From a virus: DNA of 54,779 bases. Location of the stretch: positions 1 to 54,779 of the IMG/VR virus record IMGVR_UViG_3300020084_000018; one strand, written 5' to 3'. Shown piece by piece: positions 3,248 through 54,779 of this stretch. The notes beneath the pieces were generated by a model. It saw nothing but the letters and a program-made list of their open reading frames with translations. It was not told where the DNA came from and did no database searches. Position numbers and translations under genes: made by a program. The stretch's first letter is position 1. Each line of letters begins with the position of its first letter.

Positions 3248-3617
3248 CGACCATTTAAGACATTCCTTAGCAAGAGGAATTACTTTTGATTTCTCCTACG
3301 AGGACTGGCTAGAAATGTGGTTAATATCAGGTAAGTGGTCAGAACGAGGAAAGAAATCTGGCCAATATGTTATGTGCAGGTTTGGTGACATTGGACCTTA
3401 TAATAAACGTAACTGTTATATTGGAACAGTTGAACAGAACGGCAGAGATAGGTGGCAAGACGTTGAAAAAGTAGACGACACTAAAGCTGCCCAGATTTAT
3501 GAAATGTATATTAATACTGATGCGACACAAAAAGAAATAGGTGACTTATTCGGAGTTGACCAATCTTATGTGTCAAAAATTGTGAACAATAAAAGGAAGA
3601 AGAATGTTCGATCATAA
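3225..3617 (+). CDS. HTH DNA-binding protein, probable mobile-element accessory
   Basis: A 130-residue protein starting at GTG with AGAGGA upstream. The first 75 residues contain CRFGDIGPYNKRNCYIG, a segment I associate with proteins carried by phage homing genes. The last 40 residues form a helix-turn-helix (QKEIGDLFGVDQSYVSKIV) like the C-terminus of the HNH protein at 6218-6709. No HNH residues are present. It overlaps the MazG-like gene by 23 nt and nrdJ by 14 nt, so it looks inserted between them. Function unproven. Confidence 0.6.
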   Translation: MTPKKAFDDHLRHSLARGITFDFSYEDWLEMWLISGKWSERGKKSGQYVMCRFGDIGPYNKRNCYIGTVEQNGRDRWQDVEKVDDTKAAQIYEMYINTDATQKEIGDLFGVDQSYVSKIVNNKRKKNVRS

Positions 3618-4617
3618 CTACCTACCAACAGACTATCAGCGGTTTATCCACACATCTAGATATGCCCGTTGGCTAAATGCAGAAGGTCGTAGGGAAAATT
3701 GGGAAGAAACTGTAGACCGTTTTATTCGAGAAGTGGTGCTAAGTAAGACCGACGACACTAAGACAGTGGCTGAAATTCGAGAAGCGATTCTTGGTCTTGA
3801 GGTTACACCTTCTATGCGGGCGCTAATGACTGCCGGTCCTGCTCTACATCGAGATAATACTTGTGCCTATAACTGTTCCTACCTAGCAGTAGATAATGTT
3901 AAGTCCTTTGACGAAGCTATGTTTATTCTGCTGTGTGGCACTGGTGTAGGTTTCTCGGTAGAGCGTCAGTTTATTAGTAAACTACCAGATATTCCTGATA
4001 ACCTATTTAAGTCCGAGACTACCATTGTAGTTCACGATAGCAAAGAGGGTTGGGCCAAGTCTCTGCGTCAGCTTATTGCGCTTCTCTACTCTGGTGAAAT
4101 TCCTAAGTGGGACGTATCTAAAGTTCGTGCGGCAGGAGAGCGTCTAAAGACTTTCGGTGGTCGTGCTTCTGGTCCTGCACCGCTAATTGATCTGTTCCAG
4201 TTCGTTATTAACAAGTTTAAGGATGCTAAAGGTCGTAAGCTAAACTCACTAGAGTGCCATGACATTATGTGTAAGATTGGCGAAGTTGTAGTTGTAGGCG
4301 GTGTTCGTCGTTCTGCTATGATTTCTCTCTCTAACCTATCAGATGATCGTATGCGTTATGCTAAGTCTGGTCAATGGTGGGATGGTAATACTCAACGGGC
4401 TCTAGCTAACAATAGTGTAAGCTATACAGAGAAACCAGATAGTGAAACCTTCCTGCGGGAATGGCTAGCACTGATTGAGAGTAAGTCAGGTGAGCGTGGT
4501 ATCTTTAACCGTCAAGCCGCAGAGAAACAAGTTCTAAAAAATGGACGTAGAGAAGGTGGTTATGCTTGGGGGACCAACCCCTGTTCCGAAATTGTACTTA
4601 GACCGAATCAATTCTGT
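3604..4617 (+). CDS. nrdJ: Class II ribonucleotide reductase, exon 1
   Basis: Codons 1-338 of an adenosylcobalamin-dependent ribonucleotide reductase, which makes deoxyribonucleotides from ribonucleotides. Seen here: the redox cysteine in YNCSYL (C91), GTGVGFSVER, and the active-site loop NPCSEI (N325, C327, E329) holding the thiyl-radical cysteine. The exon ends exactly on the codon for C338 of RPNQFC, the partner of C91 in the reducible pair. The unspliced frame stops three bases later (TAA 4618-4620), so the protein needs intron removal. RBS AAAGGAAG precedes ATG 3604. A B12-dependent enzyme needs no separate radical-generating subunit, and none is seen. Confidence 0.92.
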
Positions 4618-5325
4618 TAATAGATAGCAGAAGTAAAACAGGGTGAATTGTCTGGGAAACCTAAGTCGGAAGATAAGGTAATCAGCAGCCAAGCTTGAGC
4701 CGGGAGGCTCTTGAAGGTTCAACGACTAGGACATACATACTAGATCAGTATATGAAGTCCGTACACTCAAGCGAGTGGAAGTGCCCTGCCCCTATTAGTT
4801 TAGGGTGATGATATAGTCTGATCTATGGGGAAACTCATAGGAGAAAGAGGAAAAATGAAAAACAGAGAAGGTTACATTGTAACAACTGAAACCAGGGAAT
4901 GTACCAAATGCAGAAGTATGTTTCTAAACAAAAGTAAAACAGTTACTCTGTGCCCTACCTGTAACTCCTCGCGTGTTAAAGGTGAAAGTCAAGAAGTTAG
5001 GATGTACAGAAGAGCTAAAGCCCGTGCCAGAACAAGTGGCGTGGAATTTAGTATTGAGAAATCAGACGTAGTAATACCTAAGATTTGTCCTGTACTTGGT
5101 ATTAATCTAAAGCATAAGATTGGTTCCTCTGGCGGAAGTGACAATAGCCCTGCCCTAGATAGGATTGACAATAGCAAAGGTTACGTTAAAGGAAACGTAC
5201 AAGTTATTAGTCACCTAGCAAATATGATGAAAAGTTCTGCTAATGTGGAACAACTACAAAAATTTGCAGCTTGGGTAAATAACACATTTCCGGTATCAAC
5301 TAGCGATTGATATTGAACATAAATG
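4618..5325 (+). ncRNA. Group I self-splicing intron in nrdJ
   Basis: The two nrdJ exons join in frame across 4618-5325 (NQFC | NLTEV). The intron has the conserved core: a P/Q-like segment AATCAGCAGCC near 4679, an R-like segment GGTTCAACGACTAGG near 4717 and an S-like segment GATATAGTC near 4809, whose TAGTC can pair with GACTA to form P7. The 5' exon CAATTC pairs with GAATTG (4645-4650) as a P1/guide, with CTGTT/AACAG extending it. The 5' exon ends in T and the intron ends in G, as group I chemistry requires. It encodes an HNH endonuclease in a peripheral loop. Confidence 0.93.
4855..5310 (+). CDS. Intron-encoded HNH homing endonuclease
   Basis: A 151-residue protein inside the nrdJ intron. 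ATG 4855 has AGAGGAAAA immediately upstream and is preferred over ATG 4825, which lies in structured intron RNA. It has an N-terminal zinc ribbon (CTKC and CPTC), then an HNH-like nuclease core with CPVLGINL and SPALDRIDNSKGYVKGN, where a His is replaced by Asp-Arg as in many phage members. It probably cuts intronless nrdJ alleles so that the intron is copied in. Transfer by homing is inference. Confidence 0.88.
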   Translation: MKNREGYIVTTETRECTKCRSMFLNKSKTVTLCPTCNSSRVKGESQEVRMYRRAKARARTSGVEFSIEKSDVVIPKICPVLGINLKHKIGSSGGSDNSPALDRIDNSKGYVKGNVQVISHLANMMKSSANVEQLQKFAAWVNNTFPVSTSD

Positions 5326-6234
5326 AATCTAACAGAAGTTGTTGTCCGAGAGTCAGACGATGTTGAAGCACTCAAGAGGAAAGTCCGCATTGCAACAATT
5401 CTTGGAACTATCCAATCTACATACACAAACTTCCCGTATCTCCGCAAAATCTGGAAAGACAACACAGAAGCAGAACGACTACTAGGTGTTTCGCTTACTG
5501 GTATCATGGACAATGAAATCCTGAATGGAAGGTCTACCCGCTATGGCAAAAACATTAAAGTCATTCTGGAAGAACTACGGCAAGTCGCAGTGGACACTAA
5601 CTCAGAGTGGGCTGGTATTCTTGGGATTCCTGTATCTGCTGCTATTACCTGTGTCAAGCCCAGCGGCACAGTTAGTCAACTTGTTGATTCTGCTTCTGGT
5701 ATTCATCCTCGGCACAGTGAGTATTACATCAGAACCGTGCGGGGAGACAACAAAGACCCGCTAACACAGTTTATGAAAGCACAAGGTATTCCTTCGGAGC
5801 CAGATGTTATGAAGCCAGACAACACAACAGTCTTTAGCTTCCCGCAGAAAGCACCTACAGGAGCAGTAACGAGAGAACAGCTATCAGCTATTGAACAGCT
5901 AGAACTGTGGCTTATGTATCAACGTCACTGGTGCGAACATAAACCTTCTATCACTGTTAATGTGCGAGACAACGAATGGATTGATGTAGGAGCATGGGTA
6001 TACAAACACTTTGATGAAATTTCTGGTGTAAGTTTCCTTCCTCACTCAGACCATACATATGCTCAAGCACCTTATCAGGATTGCACTAAGCATGACTACG
6101 AAGAACTAAAGAGCGTTATGCCAGACAAGATTGATTGGAGTAAGCTAAGTGAGTTTGAGAAAGAAGACACTACTAAGGGAACTTCTACCTTTGCGTGTTC
6201 CGGTGAAGTGTGCGAACTTGTCGACATTAGTTAA
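5326..6234 (+). CDS. nrdJ: Class II ribonucleotide reductase, exon 2
   Basis: The remaining 302 residues of NrdJ, giving about 640 in total, normal for a monomeric phage class II enzyme. Features: TGIMDNEILN, the phosphate-binding loop KPSGTVSQLVDSASGIHPRHS, HWCEHKPSITV, and the mobile C-terminal tail ACSGEVCELV with two cysteines that pass reducing equivalents to the active site. The ATG at 5323 is created by the intron end and is not a real start. The last 17 bases overlap the HNH gene that follows. Confidence 0.92.
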   Translation, partial: NLTEVVVRESDDVEALKRKVRIATILGTIQSTYTNFPYLRKIWKDNTEAERLLGVSLTGIMDNEILNGRSTRYGKNIKVILEELRQVAVDTNSEWAGILGIPVSAAITCVKPSGTVSQLVDSASGIHPRHSEYYIRTVRGDNKDPLTQFMKAQGIPSEPDVMKPDNTTVFSFPQKAPTGAVTREQLSAIEQLELWLMYQRHWCEHKPSITVNVRDNEWIDVGAWVYKHFDEISGVSFLPHSDHTYAQAPYQDCTKHDYEELKSVMPDKIDWSKLSEFEKEDTTKGTSTFACSGEVCELVDIS

Positions 6235-6709
6235 CATCAGAGGCTTTAGTCAGTATGCTGTAGATGAAAATGGAGTAGTCTACAGCTACTTTTCAGATAA
6301 GTATCTTGTGGGCAGAGTTGACGCAAAAGGGTATCTATCTGTCACTATTAAAAGTGATAAAGGTAAACTTGTCACTAAACGTATCCACAGACTAATAGCA
6401 GAAACATTAATTCCTAACCCACATAACTTACCTTGCGTAAGACATAAAGATGGTGTTCCTCATAACAACAAAAAGTCTAACTTGTGTTGGGGAACCTATA
6501 AAGACAACGAACTAGATAAAATTGAACACGGCACATACGATCTTAGACGTAGTGGTAAACTATCAGAAAATGATAGAGTAAAAGCATTGAAACTGTTTGA
6601 GGATGGGATGGAACAAAAAGATATTGCAAAGCTGTTTGGAGTAACACGACCTACGATCAACCGACTAATCAACGGAAGAACTTGGAGCGGCTTTAAGTGC
6701 GCTGCTTGA
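6218..6709 (+). CDS. HNH homing endonuclease with C-terminal HTH
   Basis: Immediately downstream of nrdJ and overlapping its stop. The best start is TTG 6218 with GGTGAAG upstream; the upstream ATG would put most of its extra codons inside nrdJ. Order of parts: a NUMOD4-like segment (GFSQYAVDENG), an HNH_3 core with R-H-K-D-G (CVRHKDGVPHNNKKSNL), and a C-terminal helix-turn-helix (QKDIAKLFGVTRPTINRLI). This is a typical freestanding phage homing endonuclease. Its HTH resembles that of the 3225-3617 protein. Confidence 0.82.
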   Translation: MSTLVNIRGFSQYAVDENGVVYSYFSDKYLVGRVDAKGYLSVTIKSDKGKLVTKRIHRLIAETLIPNPHNLPCVRHKDGVPHNNKKSNLCWGTYKDNELDKIEHGTYDLRRSGKLSENDRVKALKLFEDGMEQKDIAKLFGVTRPTINRLINGRTWSGFKCAA

Positions 6710-7644
6710 TAGGATGCGAATACTCTGGTGTAGTTCGTAGAGCATTTCAAAATATGGGCCATGAAGTTTATTCTTGTGACCTTCTTCCGGCTGATGATGG
6801 AGAGACTAAATATCATTATCAAGGGGATATTAGAGATATACTTTACGATGGTTGGGATTTTGCTTGCTTCCATCCGCCTTGCACACACTTAGCAGTATCA
6901 GGAGCAAGATGGTTTAAGGACAAGCTTGTAGAGCAGCAGGAAGCACTTGACTTTGTTCAGATGCTAATGGATGCACCTATTGATAAGATTGCGATTGAAA
7001 ACCCTATCAGCATTATCTCTAGTAAGATCAGAAAACCTGACCAGATTATTCAACCTTGGTGGTTTGGTGATATGGCACAGAAGGCAACTTGCCTATGGCT
7101 AAAGAACCTACCGCCCCTACAAAAGACTAATGACGTATACGATGAAATGATGAAACTTCCTCGTAAAGAGAGGGAAAAGATTTGGTATTGTCCACCCGGA
7201 CCTGACCGTTGGAAGATCAGAAGTCAGACATTCCCCGGCTTTGCAGAAAGCTATGGCAGAACAATGGAGTTAACAATGTCTATCACACCACCACTTTATC
7301 CACCAGCACCAACAATTCCAGACCACCTACTTAAACACCTTAAGCTGAATAAGCCTGATGGTGGTCCTTCTGCCTATTACGACTTTCCTTTCCATGAGTG
7401 GACTACCGTCAATGATATGGTAGAATACCTGAGTGATAAGCAATGGGGAAGGCATTCTTGGATTTTCAAGGATATTGTCAAAGCAGCAACTCGTTGGGGA
7501 TCGAAGGACGGGACAACCTTTGCATATGACGCCAAAAAGATTATCTACTACGGTTGCCGACTACTAATGTCTGTAACAAATAAAACTGTAGTTCGTGAAT
7601 ACCTACAACAACTACTGGATGATAAACAGTTTCAGGAGAGATAA
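6697..7644 (+). CDS. Cytosine-C5 DNA methyltransferase-like protein with C-terminal extra domain
   Basis: A 315-residue protein from GTG 6697 with GGAG upstream. Residues 1-200: CEYSGVVRRAF near the start in place of the usual FxGxG, HPPC at 59-62 with the catalytic cysteine C62, and ENP at 101-103, as in the Dcm-like family. Residues about 215-305 form a separate helical domain (HEWTTVNDMVEYL through WGSKDGTTFAYDAKKIIYYG) not part of usual methyltransferases, so it may be a fusion. It may protect or modify phage DNA. Confidence 0.75.
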   Translation: MRCLIGCEYSGVVRRAFQNMGHEVYSCDLLPADDGETKYHYQGDIRDILYDGWDFACFHPPCTHLAVSGARWFKDKLVEQQEALDFVQMLMDAPIDKIAIENPISIISSKIRKPDQIIQPWWFGDMAQKATCLWLKNLPPLQKTNDVYDEMMKLPRKEREKIWYCPPGPDRWKIRSQTFPGFAESYGRTMELTMSITPPLYPPAPTIPDHLLKHLKLNKPDGGPSAYYDFPFHEWTTVNDMVEYLSDKQWGRHSWIFKDIVKAATRWGSKDGTTFAYDAKKIIYYGCRLLMSVTNKTVVREYLQQLLDDKQFQER

Positions 7645-38769: not shown

Positions 38770-38897
38770 TGGTTTAGTTCCTTCATATGCGTATGACATT
38801 TAGCCAGACTCCCGCTTACAATTACCTCACTACCTTTAAGAACCATGAACTCGCCGGTCCTTAAACAGTAGTCTATTCTGTATTGCGGTTTTGTCAT
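38766..38897 (-). CDS. Small hypothetical protein, 43 aa
   Basis: ATG 38897 overlaps the stop of the preceding large gene (ATGA), and its TGA overlaps the peptidase ATG, so all three are coupled. Contains CLRTGEFMVLKGSEVIV, beta-rich. Not recognised. Confidence 0.5.
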   Translation of the reverse strand: MTKPQYRIDYCLRTGEFMVLKGSEVIVSGSLAKCHTHMKELNQ

Positions 38898-40138
38898 GCC
38901 GCTTCTTCCGTATCGTCTTCTTCCTCAGCTTCCTCTTGCCTTTTTGCTAGTAGTTCCTCGTAGGTATCTTTAGTGAAGTAGTTTCCTTCTTCCTCATCAT
39001 AGCAGGCATAACTTTCAGCAGCATCCTCAGACCATTGTTGAGTGTCAATGTAGCCATACCATGTTTTGTCAAGACTAATGATAACAGTTTCAGTAGGACC
39101 AGAAGTCCAATCTTCATGGTATTCACAGTAATTGGCACAGCAGTTTTCACCAACAGTTTCTCCTTCTACAGTAGTAACAGCAGGACCATAAATTGTATCG
39201 CCGCAGCACTCACATTTTATTCTAGCTCTTATCCAACCTTCCGTATTGCAGAAACTATAAGTGCTACCACCGAGAACAAAATAATCTCCATCATCATCCG
39301 CCTCACAGTTATTATCCATATAGGGAGCAAGAAAGACTCCCGGTTCAGTTTCAATTTTCAGGAGTTTAGCACCGTCCCAAGAATCGCTAACTTCATCAGT
39401 TTTACGAATGTCAGGATAAGTTTCCCGAATTTTTGCTTCCAGTTCGATCCCTGCCATAGTGTTAGAGACATAAGGATAGCTGTAGGTCATATCATGGAGA
39501 CAGACAAGAGTCCTAGCAGCAATTTTTCCAAACTCATTCATAAGATAATGAAGTTCAAAATCTCCACTGGCGTAAACTTCTGTTGGGTGAAATTCTCCAA
39601 AACTGTGACGCATACAAGAAGCATTAAGGCAGGCATAATTTCCGATGTTACGACCGCTTTCAGCCTCAGTCATATAAATCTCAGCAAAGTCTTTACGAGT
39701 CTTGCCAATCTTGTGTGTGTAGGTATGTTCAGCAAATTCCTCCAAGATGATGTTAGTAAGAATTTCAACTTGAAGATCATTAAAGTAAGGAGCAACCTTA
39801 CGAATGAACTTGCCGATCTTAGAGGAAGTCCGAATACCTTTCTCTTTCTTAACTTGGTTCTCGAAGTAGCTCACAGTCTTATCTTTAGCATTGAAGACAG
39901 GAGCGGTAAAAACAAGAACTGACCGAGAAATATACGCAGTCAGAAAAGCAACTTCTTGCGGGGGAGCCTTGTAGTAGGTATCAAAGTCCAAACCAGGAAA
40001 AAGTTTAATTACATTTTCCAAGTTAAAATCATCAGCGCGGAAAGGGCTGTGATGTTCATCTGCCTGCCACGGGTAAAAGCTACGCATGTTGTCAATGTGA
40101 AGCGCGCGGGTGGCGGGTGTATAGTAGTGCAGGGCCAT
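38894..40138 (-). CDS. Large unknown phage protein, paralogue A
   Basis: 414 residues, family not recognised. The core from about 110 to 300 contains KIGKFIRKVAPYFND, NASCMRHSFGEFHPTEVYASGDFEL and WDGAKLLKI, and is clearly homologous to the protein at 46541-47539. A cysteine-rich segment follows (IKCECCGD, GENCCANYCEYH), likely a zinc ribbon, and then an acidic tail. First gene of the leftward cluster, behind its own promoter with GGAGGCAACACA before the ATG. Confidence 0.75.
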   Translation of the reverse strand: MALHYYTPATRALHIDNMRSFYPWQADEHHSPFRADDFNLENVIKLFPGLDFDTYYKAPPQEVAFLTAYISRSVLVFTAPVFNAKDKTVSYFENQVKKEKGIRTSSKIGKFIRKVAPYFNDLQVEILTNIILEEFAEHTYTHKIGKTRKDFAEIYMTEAESGRNIGNYACLNASCMRHSFGEFHPTEVYASGDFELHYLMNEFGKIAARTLVCLHDMTYSYPYVSNTMAGIELEAKIRETYPDIRKTDEVSDSWDGAKLLKIETEPGVFLAPYMDNNCEADDDGDYFVLGGSTYSFCNTEGWIRARIKCECCGDTIYGPAVTTVEGETVGENCCANYCEYHEDWTSGPTETVIISLDKTWYGYIDTQQWSEDAAESYACYDEEEGNYFTKDTYEELLAKRQEEAEEEDDTEEAA

Positions 40139-45921: not shown

Positions 45922-46075
45922 GCGTGAACTAGTTGACAAGTTCTACGAAGAAAGGTTTGACCTTACTTATGTAGAGACTATCCTGGAAATGGCTTTTGAT
46001 GCTGGAAGGGATTTTGGATATACAGAAGGTTATGCTGATGGTAGTTCAGATGGTTATGTTAGTAGGTCCAGTTAA
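45875..46075 (+). CDS. Hypothetical small protein, 66 aa
   Basis: Not recognised. Starts at ATG 45875 or 45881, overlapping the previous gene. Helical (EFQKWYLRNLERELVDKFYE), then a glycine-tyrosine run YTEGYADGSSDGYV. Shares one base with the polymerase exonuclease gene. Confidence 0.5.
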   Translation: MTMQTEFQKWYLRNLERELVDKFYEERFDLTYVETILEMAFDAGRDFGYTEGYADGSSDGYVSRSS

Positions 46076-46536
46076 TGTTTGAATATGTCTTCGACCTAGA
46101 GGCTGATGGACTTCTGGACACTATCACTAAAATCCATTGTCTGTCCTACAAGAGAGTAGATGGGGATAAGGCGTATACGATATATGACCCTGATGAAATG
46201 GTAAGATTTTTTAATCCGCCAGATTGTTCCACAAACATTTACATCGGACACCATATCATAGGGTATGACTTCAAAGCCCTAAAGAAAATCTACGGTATCG
46301 AGCGGCCTAAATATCTGGTCGATACATTGGGACTATCGTGGTATCTTCATCCTGACAGGGCAGAACACGGCCTAGAAAGTTATGGTGAGGACTATGGAGT
46401 TCCTAAACCAAAGATCAACGATTGGCACAACCTTACCATTGAGGAATATACCAATCGTTGTGAGACTGATGTAGAAATCAACCGCAGACTGTGGCTTGAC
46501 CTAAAACGTAAATTGCAAAAAATCTATTCGGAGTGA
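46075..46536 (+). CDS. DNA polymerase I-family, piece 1: 3'-5' exonuclease domain
   Basis: 153 residues. FDLEADGL (D7, E9) is Exo I, GHHIIGYDFKALK is the Exo II region (D near 69), and EYTNRCETDVEIN is Exo III (Y...D). This is the DnaQ-like proofreading domain of T7-type family A polymerases, ending at RKLQKIYSE where a whole enzyme would continue into the thumb. The rest of the polymerase restarts at 47529. RBS not obvious; coupled by TAATG to the gene before. Confidence 0.88.
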   Translation: MFEYVFDLEADGLLDTITKIHCLSYKRVDGDKAYTIYDPDEMVRFFNPPDCSTNIYIGHHIIGYDFKALKKIYGIERPKYLVDTLGLSWYLHPDRAEHGLESYGEDYGVPKPKINDWHNLTIEEYTNRCETDVEINRRLWLDLKRKLQKIYSE

Positions 46537-46540
46537 GTTA

Positions 46541-47539
46541 ATGCAGTTCGACAAATACAAAGAGTTTTACAACGCAATTGTGCCACCACTAGCTGCGTCT
46601 GATGTTAGAACTGACGATGATCTTTACAATAAGATTGCTAACTGTGCTTGCATTTATGACTTTTGGTGTGAAGGTTTTCGTCAAGGGATATTCGATAGTG
46701 AACTTGACCACTACTACCAAGTAGATGCAGAGTTCTATCGTAAAATCCGAACTTTCTACAAACTATACTCCCCCGTAATTAAGCCCGAACTAGCTACTGT
46801 TGGTGAGATTGAGATTAACGTTATCAATAAACGACTAGAGCGCACGGGTAAAAAGACTAACGTCAAGATCGGTCGTGCTTTGGGTCTAATCGCACCTTTC
46901 CTTACTGACAGGAATAAAGAGTCTATTGCCACTTGGGTTAAGGATACCTACTCACCGCTAGACCTGAACTTCAATATGGTTGAAACAGGTTTTGAAGATA
47001 TTGTGACCATGAGGCAACGTCGAGCCACGCATTTTAATACTACCAAGTATTTCAAGCAGATCGACAACTCCTGTATGCGACATGCCAAACACTATTTTGG
47101 TTTAGAGAAATATCATCCCTATACTGCTTACGAGAGTGGTGACTTCCTTCTAGCTTATGCGACGGATGAGGAAAACAAACTTGCAGGTAGGGCTCTAGTT
47201 CACAAAGACAGTAAGACATTCTCTGCTATCTACGGAGTATCTAAACCTGCTGTTGATTTCATCCACGAGAAGCTAAAGACAGAAGGTTATCGCTTTGTAG
47301 ATGAGGAAGGTATGGCTTGGGAGGGTGCTAAACTTCTTCACTTAATTGATGATTGGGAAAACCCTGATGATCCAGATGAACATGGAGAAGTGGTTATTGC
47401 TCCTTATGTAGATTTCTGGGACAGTGAGGAAGCCTACACAGATGGGGAATATATTCATCTAGTTAACGAACGCCCCGACGATGGAAAGAAATACAAGAGA
47501 TTGGATATGTGCTTTGCGGAAGGATTTAATGAACTCTAA
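46541..47539 (+). CDS. Large unknown phage protein, paralogue B, inserted within the polymerase locus
   Basis: 332 residues, family not recognised, homologous to 38894-40138: KTNVKIGRALGLIAPFLTD, DNSCMRHAKHYFGLEKYHP, YTAYESGDFLLAY and GMAWEGAKLLHLIDD all have counterparts there. It lacks the cysteine-rich tail of paralogue A. It lies between pieces 1 and 2 of the polymerase and overlaps piece 2 by 11 nt. Confidence 0.75.
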   Translation: MQFDKYKEFYNAIVPPLAASDVRTDDDLYNKIANCACIYDFWCEGFRQGIFDSELDHYYQVDAEFYRKIRTFYKLYSPVIKPELATVGEIEINVINKRLERTGKKTNVKIGRALGLIAPFLTDRNKESIATWVKDTYSPLDLNFNMVETGFEDIVTMRQRRATHFNTTKYFKQIDNSCMRHAKHYFGLEKYHPYTAYESGDFLLAYATDEENKLAGRALVHKDSKTFSAIYGVSKPAVDFIHEKLKTEGYRFVDEEGMAWEGAKLLHLIDDWENPDDPDEHGEVVIAPYVDFWDSEEAYTDGEYIHLVNERPDDGKKYKRLDMCFAEGFNEL

Positions 47540-48491
47540 TTTAACAGACGACCAATGGCGTATTATCCGATACCTTAATTTCAAACTAGATTGTCTTGCA
47601 GACCAAGAGGAATACGGACTAGCTATTGATGAAGAAGGTATCCGGCGTCATATTCAGACACTGGAAAGCCAGAAAGACCCTATCATTGCATCGCTTAAAG
47701 AAGCAATGCCAAAGGTTCCTCAATACCGTATCAAGAGCAAGCCTAAAGCGACACACAAGAAGGATGGTTCTCTTTCCAAACTAGGAGAGGAATGGTATAG
47801 GCTCCTTCGCGTAAATAAGCTACCAATTAACTATGACGGTGATCTACAAATCCTAGTGGGGGAACTTGAACCAAATCCAGGTTCCTCTACACAAGTTAAA
47901 GATTGGTTGTTTAGTATGGGTTGGGAGCCCTGCACCTTTAAGTATGTCAGGAACAAAGAGACAGGAGAGGAAAAGCAAGTTGAGCAAGTCAGATACTCAA
48001 GCCCAAGCAGCCCAAGGAAAGGGGAACTTACCGAGTCCGTTCTACGCCTTAAAGCAACAAATCCAGCAATCGAATACCTTGAGAAGATCACTGTTATCAA
48101 CCATCGCATATCAGTATTCGAGGGGTTCCTTAACGCGAAAAGAGAAGGACGAGCTTACCCTTATGTTGTGGCGGGGGCAGGGGGCTTTACAAACACGCTA
48201 AGGTTTAAGCACCGCGTTCCAGTTGTTAACCTTCCAAAAGTTGGCAAAGCATGGGGCGAGGAAATCAGGGGGTCGATTGTAGCTAAACCCAATAAAGTAT
48301 TTTTGGGAAGTGATATGGTATCCCTTGAAAGCACAACCAAGCGTCACTATATGTTTCCGTATGACCCTGACTATGTAGCGGAAATGAGTCAAGAGGGTTT
48401 TGACGAGCATCTCGACCTTTCTGCGTTTGCTGGTTCAATTACAAGAGATGAACTAGAATTCTATAAGTGGTATTCTAAGAATGGGGACTAA
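47529..48491 (+). CDS. DNA polymerase I-family, piece 2: thumb and palm with motif A
   Basis: 320 residues from ATG 47529 (AAGGA upstream). Starts with the thumb (IIRYLNFKLDCLADQEEYGLAID) and reaches the palm: NTLRFKHRVPVVNLPK, then motif A FLGSDMVSLEST with the metal-binding D262 and E267. It ends EFYKWYSKNGD, just where an intact enzyme leads into the fingers. The stop overlaps the start of an endonuclease VII-like gene by 11 nt. Confidence 0.9.
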   Translation: MNSNLTDDQWRIIRYLNFKLDCLADQEEYGLAIDEEGIRRHIQTLESQKDPIIASLKEAMPKVPQYRIKSKPKATHKKDGSLSKLGEEWYRLLRVNKLPINYDGDLQILVGELEPNPGSSTQVKDWLFSMGWEPCTFKYVRNKETGEEKQVEQVRYSSPSSPRKGELTESVLRLKATNPAIEYLEKITVINHRISVFEGFLNAKREGRAYPYVVAGAGGFTNTLRFKHRVPVVNLPKVGKAWGEEIRGSIVAKPNKVFLGSDMVSLESTTKRHYMFPYDPDYVAEMSQEGFDEHLDLSAFAGSITRDELEFYKWYSKNGD

Positions 48492-48915
48492 ACGTAGACT
48501 ACAGCAAAGAGATATGACGGCAAGGCCAAGCAGGTATCCGCAGGGTAACTTTAATTCTAAGAGTTGCAAATGGTGTTTTGCAGGTTTTGAACCTCAAGCC
48601 CCAAGTCATTTATACTGTTCTCAAGTATGCGCTGACGATGCTTACACAAACAGATACTATAAAAGAAAGTATAATATCGGTCTTAAAGAAGTTAGAGCAA
48701 TGTATGATGAACAAAATGGTACGTGTGCTATCTGTAAAACTGTTGGATTTAAGATGCTAGATAGTCATATGTCAGGAATGAACCTCGATCATTGCCATGA
48801 TACAGGTAAGGTCAGGGGGCTTCTCTGTCATAATTGTAATAGAGGTCTAGGACTATTTCAGGACGATCCCACATTACTAGATAGTGCTGCTGTTTATATA
48901 AGGTCACATAAATGA
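48481..48915 (+). CDS. Endonuclease VII-like HNH nuclease splitting the polymerase
   Basis: 144 residues. Two N-terminal zinc-type cysteine pairs (CKWC and CSQVC), then CAIC at 82-85, DHCH at 103-106 and CHNC at 116-119. Related to the 1666-2085 gene. It overlaps piece 2 of the polymerase at its start and piece 3 at its end (ATGA), with no intron-like RNA around it, so this is a freestanding insertion and not a spliced element. Confidence 0.88.
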   Translation: MGTKRRLQQRDMTARPSRYPQGNFNSKSCKWCFAGFEPQAPSHLYCSQVCADDAYTNRYYKRKYNIGLKEVRAMYDEQNGTCAICKTVGFKMLDSHMSGMNLDHCHDTGKVRGLLCHNCNRGLGLFQDDPTLLDSAAVYIRSHK

Positions 48916-49475
48916 CAGTTGAGGAAATGAAACGGCTTCCAAAAGAAGAACAATACTCCATATTTAAGAGGCTTAAAGAGCAACGAAGTAACTATAAAGT
49001 TGTAAACTATAGCGCAGTATATGGAGTTGGTGCAGCTAAATTAGCTAGAGAAAGTGGGCTATCAACATCTTCTGCTAAAGCACTTCTTGTTGCCTACTGG
49101 GAACGAAACTGGTCAGTTAAAGAAATTGCAAAAGATCAAGTGGTAAAAACCCTCAAAGATGGTTCCATGTGGCTACAAAATCCAGTTAGCGGCCTCTGGC
49201 ACTCTTTGCGATACGAGAAAGATATTTTCAGCACTCTCAACCAATCAACAGGCGTGTATTGCTTTGACTCGTTTGTGGCGTATGCTAAATCTTTAGGTGT
49301 TATCATTCCAATGCAATACCATGATGAAGTCCTAGTTGAGTGTGATGAAGATAAGGTTGAAGAGACTAAAGAAAAGTTGAAAGAAGCTATTAGAAAAACT
49401 AATGAAAAAGTTAGGTTAAATGTCCAACTGGCTATTGACTATAACGTGGGTGTTAACTACGCAGAGGTTCATTAA
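48912..49475 (+). CDS. DNA polymerase I-family, piece 3: fingers and palm with motifs B and C
   Basis: 187 residues. R25, K29 and YG at 37-38 in RSNYKVVNYSAVYG are motif B (the O helix that binds dNTP), and HDE at 137-139 in MQYHDEVLVE is motif C with the second catalytic Asp. It ends NYAEVH, a natural family A terminus. With pieces 1 and 2 it would rebuild a T7-like polymerase of about 660 residues by non-covalent assembly. Confidence 0.9.
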   Translation: MTVEEMKRLPKEEQYSIFKRLKEQRSNYKVVNYSAVYGVGAAKLARESGLSTSSAKALLVAYWERNWSVKEIAKDQVVKTLKDGSMWLQNPVSGLWHSLRYEKDIFSTLNQSTGVYCFDSFVAYAKSLGVIIPMQYHDEVLVECDEDKVEETKEKLKEAIRKTNEKVRLNVQLAIDYNVGVNYAEVH

Positions 49476-49969
49476 TGCTAACTCAAGAAGAAGTCAGAAA
49501 ACTATTTAGTTATAGCGACGGCCAACTGTTCTGGGTTAACCCCACAAGTCGTAAATTGAAGCCAGGCCAACTAGCAGGCTCTAAGTCTACAAGATACTGG
49601 ATGATTAAGTATAAGGGTAAGTCTTACAAAAGAAGTAGGCTTGTTTGGCTCTACCACTACAATACACTTCCTACTGTAGTAGAGCATAAAGATAAAAATA
49701 GTTTTAACGACAACATTAATAATCTTAGGGCAGCTGACCAGCAGTTAAATATGTTTAATAGAGGTGCTTGCAAAGGTAGCAGTTCTAAATTTAAAGGTGT
49801 CTCTAGGAACAATGGTAGGGGTAAAAATTGGAAAGCCGAGTGCCGCGTAGGCGGAAACCATTTTTACTTGGGTTTATTTGAAACAGAACAGGAGGCTGCA
49901 AAGGCTTACGATGATTTTACAAACAGCATACACAAAGATTTTCAATTCCCCAATTCAGCGGTCCACTGA
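49475..49969 (+). CDS. HNH-AP2 homing endonuclease, paralogue 4
   Basis: 164 residues: FSYSDGQLFWVNPTSRKLK, YKRSRLVWLYHYNTLP, core EHKDKNSFNDNINNLR (Glu replaces the usual first Asp), Q-Q-L-N, then AP2 (FKGVSRNNGRGKNWKAECRV). Starts on the last base of the polymerase stop. It seems to have inserted right after piece 3 and next to a displaced small gene. Confidence 0.88.
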   Translation: MLTQEEVRKLFSYSDGQLFWVNPTSRKLKPGQLAGSKSTRYWMIKYKGKSYKRSRLVWLYHYNTLPTVVEHKDKNSFNDNINNLRAADQQLNMFNRGACKGSSSKFKGVSRNNGRGKNWKAECRVGGNHFYLGLFETEQEAAKAYDDFTNSIHKDFQFPNSAVH

Positions 49970-53663: not shown

Positions 53664-54010
53664 GAATTTTAGTTTGCGGTGGTAGAGAGTATGATGATTG
53701 GTTTCAGTTCTGTGGCTGGATGGACGCAATAACCAAGAAGGCAGCACCTAAAGACATTACCATTATCCAAGGTGGTGCTAAAGGTGCAGACTTCCTAGCT
53801 AGAGTTTGGGCAAAGTATGTCAGGATCAACTCAGAAGAATATCCGGCCAACTGGAAGAAACATGGTAAAGGCGCTGGACCCATTCGTAATCAGAAGATGC
53901 TAGACGAAGGTAAACCAGATGTAGTTATTGCGTTTCCCGGAGGAACGGGAACAGCAGATATGGTTGAAAGAGCCAGGAAAGCTAAGGTAAAAGTAATTAA
54001 GGTAATGTAA
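53660..54010 (+). CDS. SLOG-domain (DUF2493-like) protein
   Basis: 116 residues from ATG 53660. RILVCGGREYDDW at the start and IIQGGAKGADFLARVWAK followed by [14 protein letters not shown] and [11 protein letters not shown]: the Rossmann-like SLOG fold of DprA/YspA relatives, which bind nucleotide derivatives. Small phage members of unknown substrate are common. Its final 120 bases are the sequence at the start of the window. Confidence 0.8.
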   Translation: MRILVCGGREYDDWFQFCGWMDAITKKAAPKDITIIQGGAKGADFLARVWAKYVRINSEEYPANWKKHGKGAGPIRNQKMLDEGKPDVVIAFPGGTGTADMVERARKAKVKVIKVM

Positions 54011-54348
54011 TGCCAATAAAAACATCATCGGCTAAAGCAAAAGGGAGGCTACTACAGAAACTTTTAGCATCTAAACTACTAGCTAGATTTACCCAACTAG
54101 AACCAGATGATATTACTTCCAGGTCTATGGGAGCAGGGGGTGAAGATGTTTTACTTTCCCCCGCAGCTAGACGACTAATTCCCTACTCATTTGAATGTAA
54201 GAACATAGCTGCATTTGCTGGCTATAGGTATCTTGAGCAGGCTGTTAGTAACTGCCCTAAGAACGCATTTCCTGTGGCAGTAGTAAAGGCTAACCGTAAA
54301 GAGCCTGTCGTTATTCTATACTTGAAAGATTGGATTGAGAAACTATGA
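54010..54348 (+). CDS. PD-(D/E)XK-like phage nuclease, second copy
   Basis: 112 residues, the variant of 120-458. GED at 44-46 and E62-x-K64 are kept. Substitutions are conservative (for example R22K, L66I, T79S) and most base changes are silent, a sign of purifying selection and so of function. Confidence 0.5.
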   Translation: MPIKTSSAKAKGRLLQKLLASKLLARFTQLEPDDITSRSMGAGGEDVLLSPAARRLIPYSFECKNIAAFAGYRYLEQAVSNCPKNAFPVAVVKANRKEPVVILYLKDWIEKL

Positions 54349-54617
54349 CTGTGAACAGACAACAGCGGCGTAGAGCAGCCTCAAAAGCTCCTAAAAATAA
54401 TCCTGTAACTGAGCAAGCACCTGCTACCGTTAAGCAGATCATTGTAGATTTTGTAGGTGGTTACACCAACGAGTTTAACAATGTTGTAGGTCTTGACACA
54501 GACACTAGTTTAGGCTTTCCACGTCTATGTATTATGACAGATGATGGAGTGGTTACTAACCTGAACCTAAGCCACGTTCAATCCTACCAAGTAACGAGAG
54601 GTGATTTAATTCAATAA
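54345..54617 (+). CDS. Hypothetical protein, 90 aa, second copy
   Basis: The variant of 455-721. The first 9 residues and the FVGGYTNEF domain match; the linker (SKAPKNNPVTEQAPA) is different in length and sequence, and the last residues differ because the next gene is the phosphoesterase and not the 62-aa gene. Confidence 0.75.
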   Translation: MTVNRQQRRRAASKAPKNNPVTEQAPATVKQIIVDFVGGYTNEFNNVVGLDTDTSLGFPRLCIMTDDGVVTNLNLSHVQSYQVTRGDLIQ

Positions 54618-54779
54618 TGACAACAGCAGTAGTATTCACATGCGCCCACACAAACCCAAAAGTAGACAATAAACGGTTTGAACTTCTTGGAAATCTTATC
54701 TTTGATCTTCGGCCTGATTACGTCTTCGACCTTGGCGACTTCGCTGATATGTCTAGTCTCAATTCTTATGATACACGAT
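54617..54779 (+). CDS. Metallophosphoesterase, second copy (partial)
   Basis: The first 54 codons of the variant of 903-1673, cut by the window end. FTCAHTNPKVDNKRFELLGN and LGDFADMSS are kept; the one amino-acid change seen is F28L. Its ATG shares one base with the previous stop. Confidence 0.85.
   Translation, partial: MTTAVVFTCAHTNPKVDNKRFELLGNLIFDLRPDYVFDLGDFADMSSLNSYDTR

Follow-up and report, generated by a model that had tools for sequence, protein, structure and literature searches.

A family A DNA polymerase in three phage genes, with an EndoVII-type endonuclease in a break that may move between relatives

The virus record IMGVR_UViG_3300020084_000018 of IMG/VR comprises 54,779 bases, and this entire stretch, hereafter the window, carries a DNA polymerase that is distributed over three genes on the + strand. 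The first encodes a 3'-5' exonuclease piece of 153 amino acids (aa; 46075..46536), which corresponds in alignments to the exonuclease at the N-terminus of undivided polymerases and matches positions 673-830 of the PHROG 17 DNA polymerase profile (E=2.8e-25). It is followed by the open reading frame ORF332 (46541..47539, +) in the gap between exonuclease and thumb. The second polymerase gene (47529..48491, +) encodes 320 aa with the thumb and the palm including motif A (SDMVSLE) and matches profile positions 833-1027 (E=4.1e-30). The second gap holds a gene for a 144-aa EndoVII-motif (DHHRN-type) endonuclease (48481..48915, +; PF02945, E=5e-22), and the third polymerase gene (48912..49475, +; PF00476, E=1.4e-18) encodes 187 aa of fingers and palm with motifs B and C. 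All five reading frames were found where the original prediction had placed them. It had described the joints as overlaps of 4-11 nucleotides (nt), which is correct for ORF332/thumb (11 nt), thumb/EndoVII (11 nt) and EndoVII/fingers (4 nt), but the exonuclease gene and ORF332 do not overlap and lie 4 nt apart.

An alignment of the concatenated pieces (153+320+187 = 660 aa) with intact Zobellviridae polymerases, those of phage KZY1 (620 aa), Salinivibrio phage CW02 (629 aa) and Erwinia phage Y2 (645 aa), extended across their entire length. The identity to the KZY1 polymerase was 47.9% in a whole-length tblastn comparison. No residues were missing relative to the intact enzymes; the pieces were longer than these by about 5 residues at joint 1 and by roughly 15-20 at joint 2. 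The three pieces covered the PHROG 17 profile in consecutive stretches (673-830, 833-1027 and 1049-1232). They are thus collinear parts of one T7-like family A polymerase, as had been predicted, and the alignment to an intact relative that had been proposed as a check revealed no loss. A second intact polymerase gene had been named as a finding that would speak against the prediction; neither a second DNA_pol_A domain nor another family A polymerase was found in the 54,779-base record. Because both split sites recur in independent contigs, the three-gene arrangement is not the product of chance or of a local assembly error. These results confirm that the three-gene polymerase is real.

The catalytic residues are distributed over two chains. 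Motif A residues D262 and E267 lie on the thumb piece, while R25, K29 and Y37 of motif B and the HDE triplet 137-139 of motif C lie on the fingers piece; all were invariant or nearly so in an alignment of 44 rows. The residues of motifs A, B and C in both pieces were mapped to the Klenow fragment by alignment, with fingers residues R25/K29/Y33/Y37 falling at Klenow R754/K758/F762/Y766 and HDE at 881-883. The earlier statement that the active site is divided between two polypeptides therefore holds, with motif A on one chain and motifs B and C on the next. The structure model of the thumb piece (predicted local distance difference test, pLDDT, 82.5) ended in a tail helix at residues 306-318, and its best Foldseek matches were all T7 DNA polymerase (E to 3e-6). 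In the model of the fingers piece (pLDDT 84.9) a long helix at residues 11-36 continued into the O-helix, and Foldseek returned the family A enzymes Taq, T7 and Pol theta. The predicted folds of these two pieces are those of a family A polymerase.

The original prediction had placed the division of the polymerase at two places. Two breaks are present, and they differ in nature: site 1 lies at the domain boundary between exonuclease and thumb, and only site 2 passes through the polymerase fold. According to the alignment with Klenow, the site-2 break falls in the loop that connects the motif A palm to the O-helix of the fingers, between His734 and Arg754 in Klenow numbering. Two new protein ends flank the break. 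The C-terminal tail of the thumb piece (48438..48491, +; ITRDELEFYKWYSKNGD, then stop) is common to the split alleles and predicted to be helical; it was delimited by aligning split and intact alleles, by the model and by a local excess of identity. The N-terminal head of the fingers piece (48912..48983, +; MTVEEMKRLPKEEQYSIFKRLK), a predicted helix leading into the O-helix, was delimited by the alignment of split alleles, the model and a motif search. In the alignment of split and intact alleles the head occurred in split alleles only. Its motif T-x-x-x-M-K-x-L...Q was kept in 8/8 lineages aligned, and a search with this pattern found no intact carriers, all confirmed matches being split alleles.

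After dereplication at 90% identity the site-2 break was present in nine of 90 polymerases, and L214, added separately, is a tenth lineage (relatives are given by locus label). An EndoVII gene fills the gap in six lineages (the window, L009, L055, L108, L139 and L214) and an HNH_3 endonuclease gene in L099. The gap of L037 holds a methylase-like gene in which DPPY methylase-type motifs were recognised by inspection. Decayed and empty versions also occur: the L061 group has a spacer of 113-146 nt, in which one member retains 23 residues resembling the start of the L099 endonuclease, and L187 has only about 40 nt. The site-2 spacers of L061 and L068 left by the endonuclease remnant also contain a direct repeat of about 20 nt (CAGGTTGGCTCAGAGCAACA). 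In isolated phages no site-2 split was seen among the matches listed (best <=60 of several hundred per search).

Selection on the pieces was estimated as the ratio of nonsynonymous to synonymous substitution (dN/dS) by the Nei-Gojobori method. Thumb and fingers pieces of five close pairs (L061/L180, L055/L201, L055/L205, L009/L084 and L037/L096) gave values of 0.075-0.24, and within the L061 group, all members of which are split, dN was 0 at dS up to 0.05. These values indicate that both sides of site 2 are under purifying selection in the relatives, as would fit halves that form an active enzyme together.

The history of the joint appears to differ from that of the remaining polymerase. In a tree built without the joint, each split row sat among rows intact at site 2, and the nine split rows needed nine changes, all forced by supported branches. 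In a tree of the joint segment the split label needed 2 changes (shuffle mean 8.7; as low in 0/500 shuffles), and the joint sequences of the split alleles nearly form one clade. An identity scan in 25-residue windows along the protein, in which split alleles were compared with random draws, showed an excess of similarity among them at residues 451-500, around joint 2, and nowhere else; the excess was clear at 451-475 (0/200 random draws) and weaker at 476-500 (0.07). Locus L096 (1340-1500) is intact at site 2, yet its joint sequence groups inside the split alleles beside L037; it is possibly a healed, re-fused gene.

Three pairs of split and intact alleles revealed local replacement at the joint. 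The DNA of L055 (split) and L205 (intact) is 88-100% identical up to and slightly past the joint region, falling to 55-62% over about 180 nt at the joint itself. The pairs L061/L180 and L009/L084 show the same local drop, to 50-67%, and elsewhere the three mosaic pairs are mostly 90-98% identical. Such a pattern would be expected if a split donor had served as template for the repair of a cut allele and only short flanks had been copied along. Recombination was not confined to the joint, since local drops also occur elsewhere in the same genes, at the exonuclease start of L009 and in the last bins of L055 versus L205. At the exonuclease start, the identity of L009 to L084 drops to 65, 44 and 60%. 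A second EndoVII-like gene (L009 3982-4218) lies just upstream of the L009 polymerase.

The EndoVII gene of the window had been recognised correctly as endonuclease VII-like. The PF02945 match spans residues 60-141 of 144 and includes the catalytic pattern CAIC...DHCH...KVRGLLCHNCN; CxxC, DHxH, R and CxxCN near the C-terminus are characteristic of EndoVII-motif (DHHRN) homing endonucleases (PMC6083498). The protein is 50-52% identical to EndoVII genes inside the polymerase genes of LUZ24, Kpp-61 and JHP. In LUZ24 and Kpp-61 these nearest relatives from isolated phages sit in group I introns (PMC6083498), and the window phage itself has a genuine group I intron in its ribonucleotide reductase (RNR) gene, which a default Rfam search detected with 81.5 bits. 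The endonuclease could accordingly be carried by a self-splicing intron, with a mature mRNA encoding an uninterrupted polymerase, but we regard this as very unlikely. No group I intron (RF00028) was found at the site-2 joint in 48100-49400 at E up to 10, while the same permissive search recovered the introns around EndoVII in the LUZ24 (40.8 bits) and Kpp-61 (25.3 bits) polymerases, and an intron at the joint was rejected. Default Rfam scans miss some phage introns, since those of the LUZ24-type polymerases (L210, L211 and L212) score below the gathering cut-off. Moreover, the EndoVII reading frame overlaps both flanking pieces and leaves no room for an intron core in the window; in L187 and the L061 group the gaps are too short for one. 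The insertion in LUZ24 and Kpp-61 is also placed differently, within motif B and not in the site-2 loop. Joining of the chains during or after translation, by frameshifting through the overlaps, ribosome bypass or a split intein, would be in keeping with the short overlaps of 11 and 4 nt at the window joints. We consider it highly improbable, as the reading frames of L187 and the L061 group do not overlap and cannot be joined by a single frameshift. The new termini (tail ...EFYKWYSKNGD, head MTVEEMKRLPKEEQ...) add about 25 residues or fewer, and direct reading, with no dedicated intein search, found no intein-like Cys or His-Asn features in them. The layout is thus one of genes in pieces, an endonuclease gene between complete collinear halves with neither intron nor intein detected, which agrees with the earlier remark that no intron core or intein was visible.

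The record is a metagenomic contig, and a decaying pseudogene or an assembly chimera, with replication by the host polymerase, might look similar; the open frames and conserved catalytic residues, the strong purifying selection in relatives and the recurrence in independent contigs leave this explanation hardly any likelihood. Repeated independent fissions with convergent termini, in place of one junction spreading horizontally, are somewhat less remote, although still unlikely. The loop varies in length among intact polymerases and would tolerate breaks, and the joint tree was built from 79 columns, with weak inner support and many forks unresolved. Convergence would nevertheless have to account for a head motif retained in every lineage aligned and confirmed by pattern search in split alleles only, and for sister pairs that show local replacement and not simple insertion. 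The small number of columns also weighs against a horizontally spreading junction in general, as do three further points. The pair L037/L096 lacks a wide divergent tract at the joint, the remnant in the L061 group matches the L099 endonuclease over a short stretch (12/23 residues identical), and the mosaic signature is seen in relatives and not in the window, because the window polymerase has no close intact relative.

With these points considered, we think it likely that the only family A polymerase of this virus consists of three separately translated chains that assemble non-covalently, and that the site-2 break was spread by a free-standing homing endonuclease. The three chains would associate without covalent joining into an active T7-like enzyme. 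The EndoVII-type homing gene would occupy the site-2 break, with a new stop and helical tail on one side and a new start and helical head on the other, and its product would cut the intact polymerase allele of a co-infecting phage. Repair would then copy the endonuclease along with the flanking new termini and turn one intact gene into two genes that still cooperate; the break would outlast the endonuclease, which may later decay, give way to another gene or disappear. Sequence comparison suggests that the broken junction and its matched new termini pass horizontally between phages by way of a free-standing homing endonuclease. The more specific claim, that the site-2 break is itself the mobile unit, an endonuclease needing neither intron nor intein and flanked by the protein ends that hold the polymerase together, may equally well be right or wrong.

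The site-1 break at the domain boundary is common and its cargo varies; it is now a gene-insertion point of which ORF332 is one occupant. Among the IMG/VR loci fetched, a dozen lineages encode the exonuclease apart from the thumb. The gap holds an HNH gene in L115 and, with a weak match, in L014, a C5 methylase gene in L137, putative methyltransferase-like genes with no Pfam match in L126 and L159, and small reading frames in other relatives; the halves directly abut in L096, L135 and L204. ORF332, previously noted as a 332-aa gene without assignment, had no match in Pfam, PHROG or PDB, and none of these libraries recognised it as an endonuclease. No clear relatives were found in isolated phages, IMG/VR or PDB, apart from a weak 27% match in L139. 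The window itself encodes a paralogue of 414 aa at 38894-40138 (-), with 28% identity (E=2e-18). The two proteins have the motif SCMRH in common, and the family of the paralogue is absent from Pfam. A gene at 6697-7644, adjoining the RNR gene, resembles the site-1 cargo of L126 and L159.

Directly 3' of the last polymerase piece lies an HNH_3/AP2 homing-type endonuclease gene (49475..49969, +; PHROG 99 HNH endonuclease, E=4e-52). About nine homing-type endonuclease-like genes were counted in the 54 kb of the window (at 1624, 4825, 6149, 32708, 37153(-), 43085, 48481, 49475 and 52523), several of which abut genes of DNA metabolism. The RNR gene (3604-6234) is interrupted by the group I intron (RF00028, 81.5 bits at 4608-4840) with a reading frame at 4825-5310; the end of exon 1 lies near 4618 and the start of exon 2 near 5326. 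The two ends of the record (1-890 and 53891-54779) repeat each other imperfectly over about 890 bases, which indicates that the genome is probably near complete. The repeat carries two versions of a 112-aa gene, and the record may be a closed genome put together from two variants.

The original prediction had set the replicative polymerase apart from the split NrdA, but split replicative polymerases have precedents. In the Aeromonas phages 25 and 44RR the family B gene 43 is split into 43A and 43B; an endonuclease gene separates the halves in one of the two phages, an untranslated spacer in its counterpart, and a review states that the phage 25 halves purify together and have activity (PMC2988022). 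That system resembles the window in being a split replicative polymerase and differs in its family B, T4-like enzyme with another fold and site; the portion of the review consulted describes no junction common to many backgrounds (PMC2988022). The parallel drawn earlier with NrdA of Aeromonas phage Aeh1 is sound: there a free-standing HNH homing endonuclease, mobE, breaks an essential gene in a critical region and the pieces NrdA-a and NrdA-b form an active enzyme (Friedrich et al. 2007, cited in PMC2988022), although the enzyme is a ribonucleotide reductase and a single phage is concerned. The OM43 phages MEP401 and MEP402, related to Zobellviridae, encode their family A polymerase in two genes with a small reading frame between them, for which the authors left an intron possible (PMC10580990). 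The MEP401 break lies just upstream of motif A, a third site unlike the two of the window, and the ORF14 in its gap is unrelated to known genes. The EndoVII-motif DHHRN homing endonucleases include F-CphI and intron-encoded members in polymerase genes (PMC6083498). LUZ24-like phages and Kpp-61 have the same endonuclease family in the same host gene; their introns lie in motif B codons, whereas the window has no intron and its reading frame lies in the loop that leads up to motif B. MW202615 (Podoviridae sp. ctwe8250), a distant relative, resembles site 1 with separate exonuclease and polymerase genes and a small reading frame between, but only the site-1 split was identified. What appears to be new here is the family A context, a break that runs through the active-site module of the polymerase, and a junction apparently moving horizontally. 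Only the comparison of relatives reveals that at least ten lineages have the site-2 junction in common and that it apparently moves between them.

The usual view is that a homing endonuclease can spare its host gene only by means of an intron, an intein or an intergenic site. Here an essential enzyme is broken at the same place in many backgrounds, with one pair of new termini in common, and the break is seen occupied, decayed and empty. For work on assembly these alleles provide naturally occurring replicative polymerases of two and three chains, with near-identical intact alleles as controls, and how a split gene arises, spreads and is lost can be followed within one gene family. If the site-2 break is indeed mobile, it would convert intact polymerases of related phages to two-chain enzymes, and the split would become permanent once the endonuclease has decayed.

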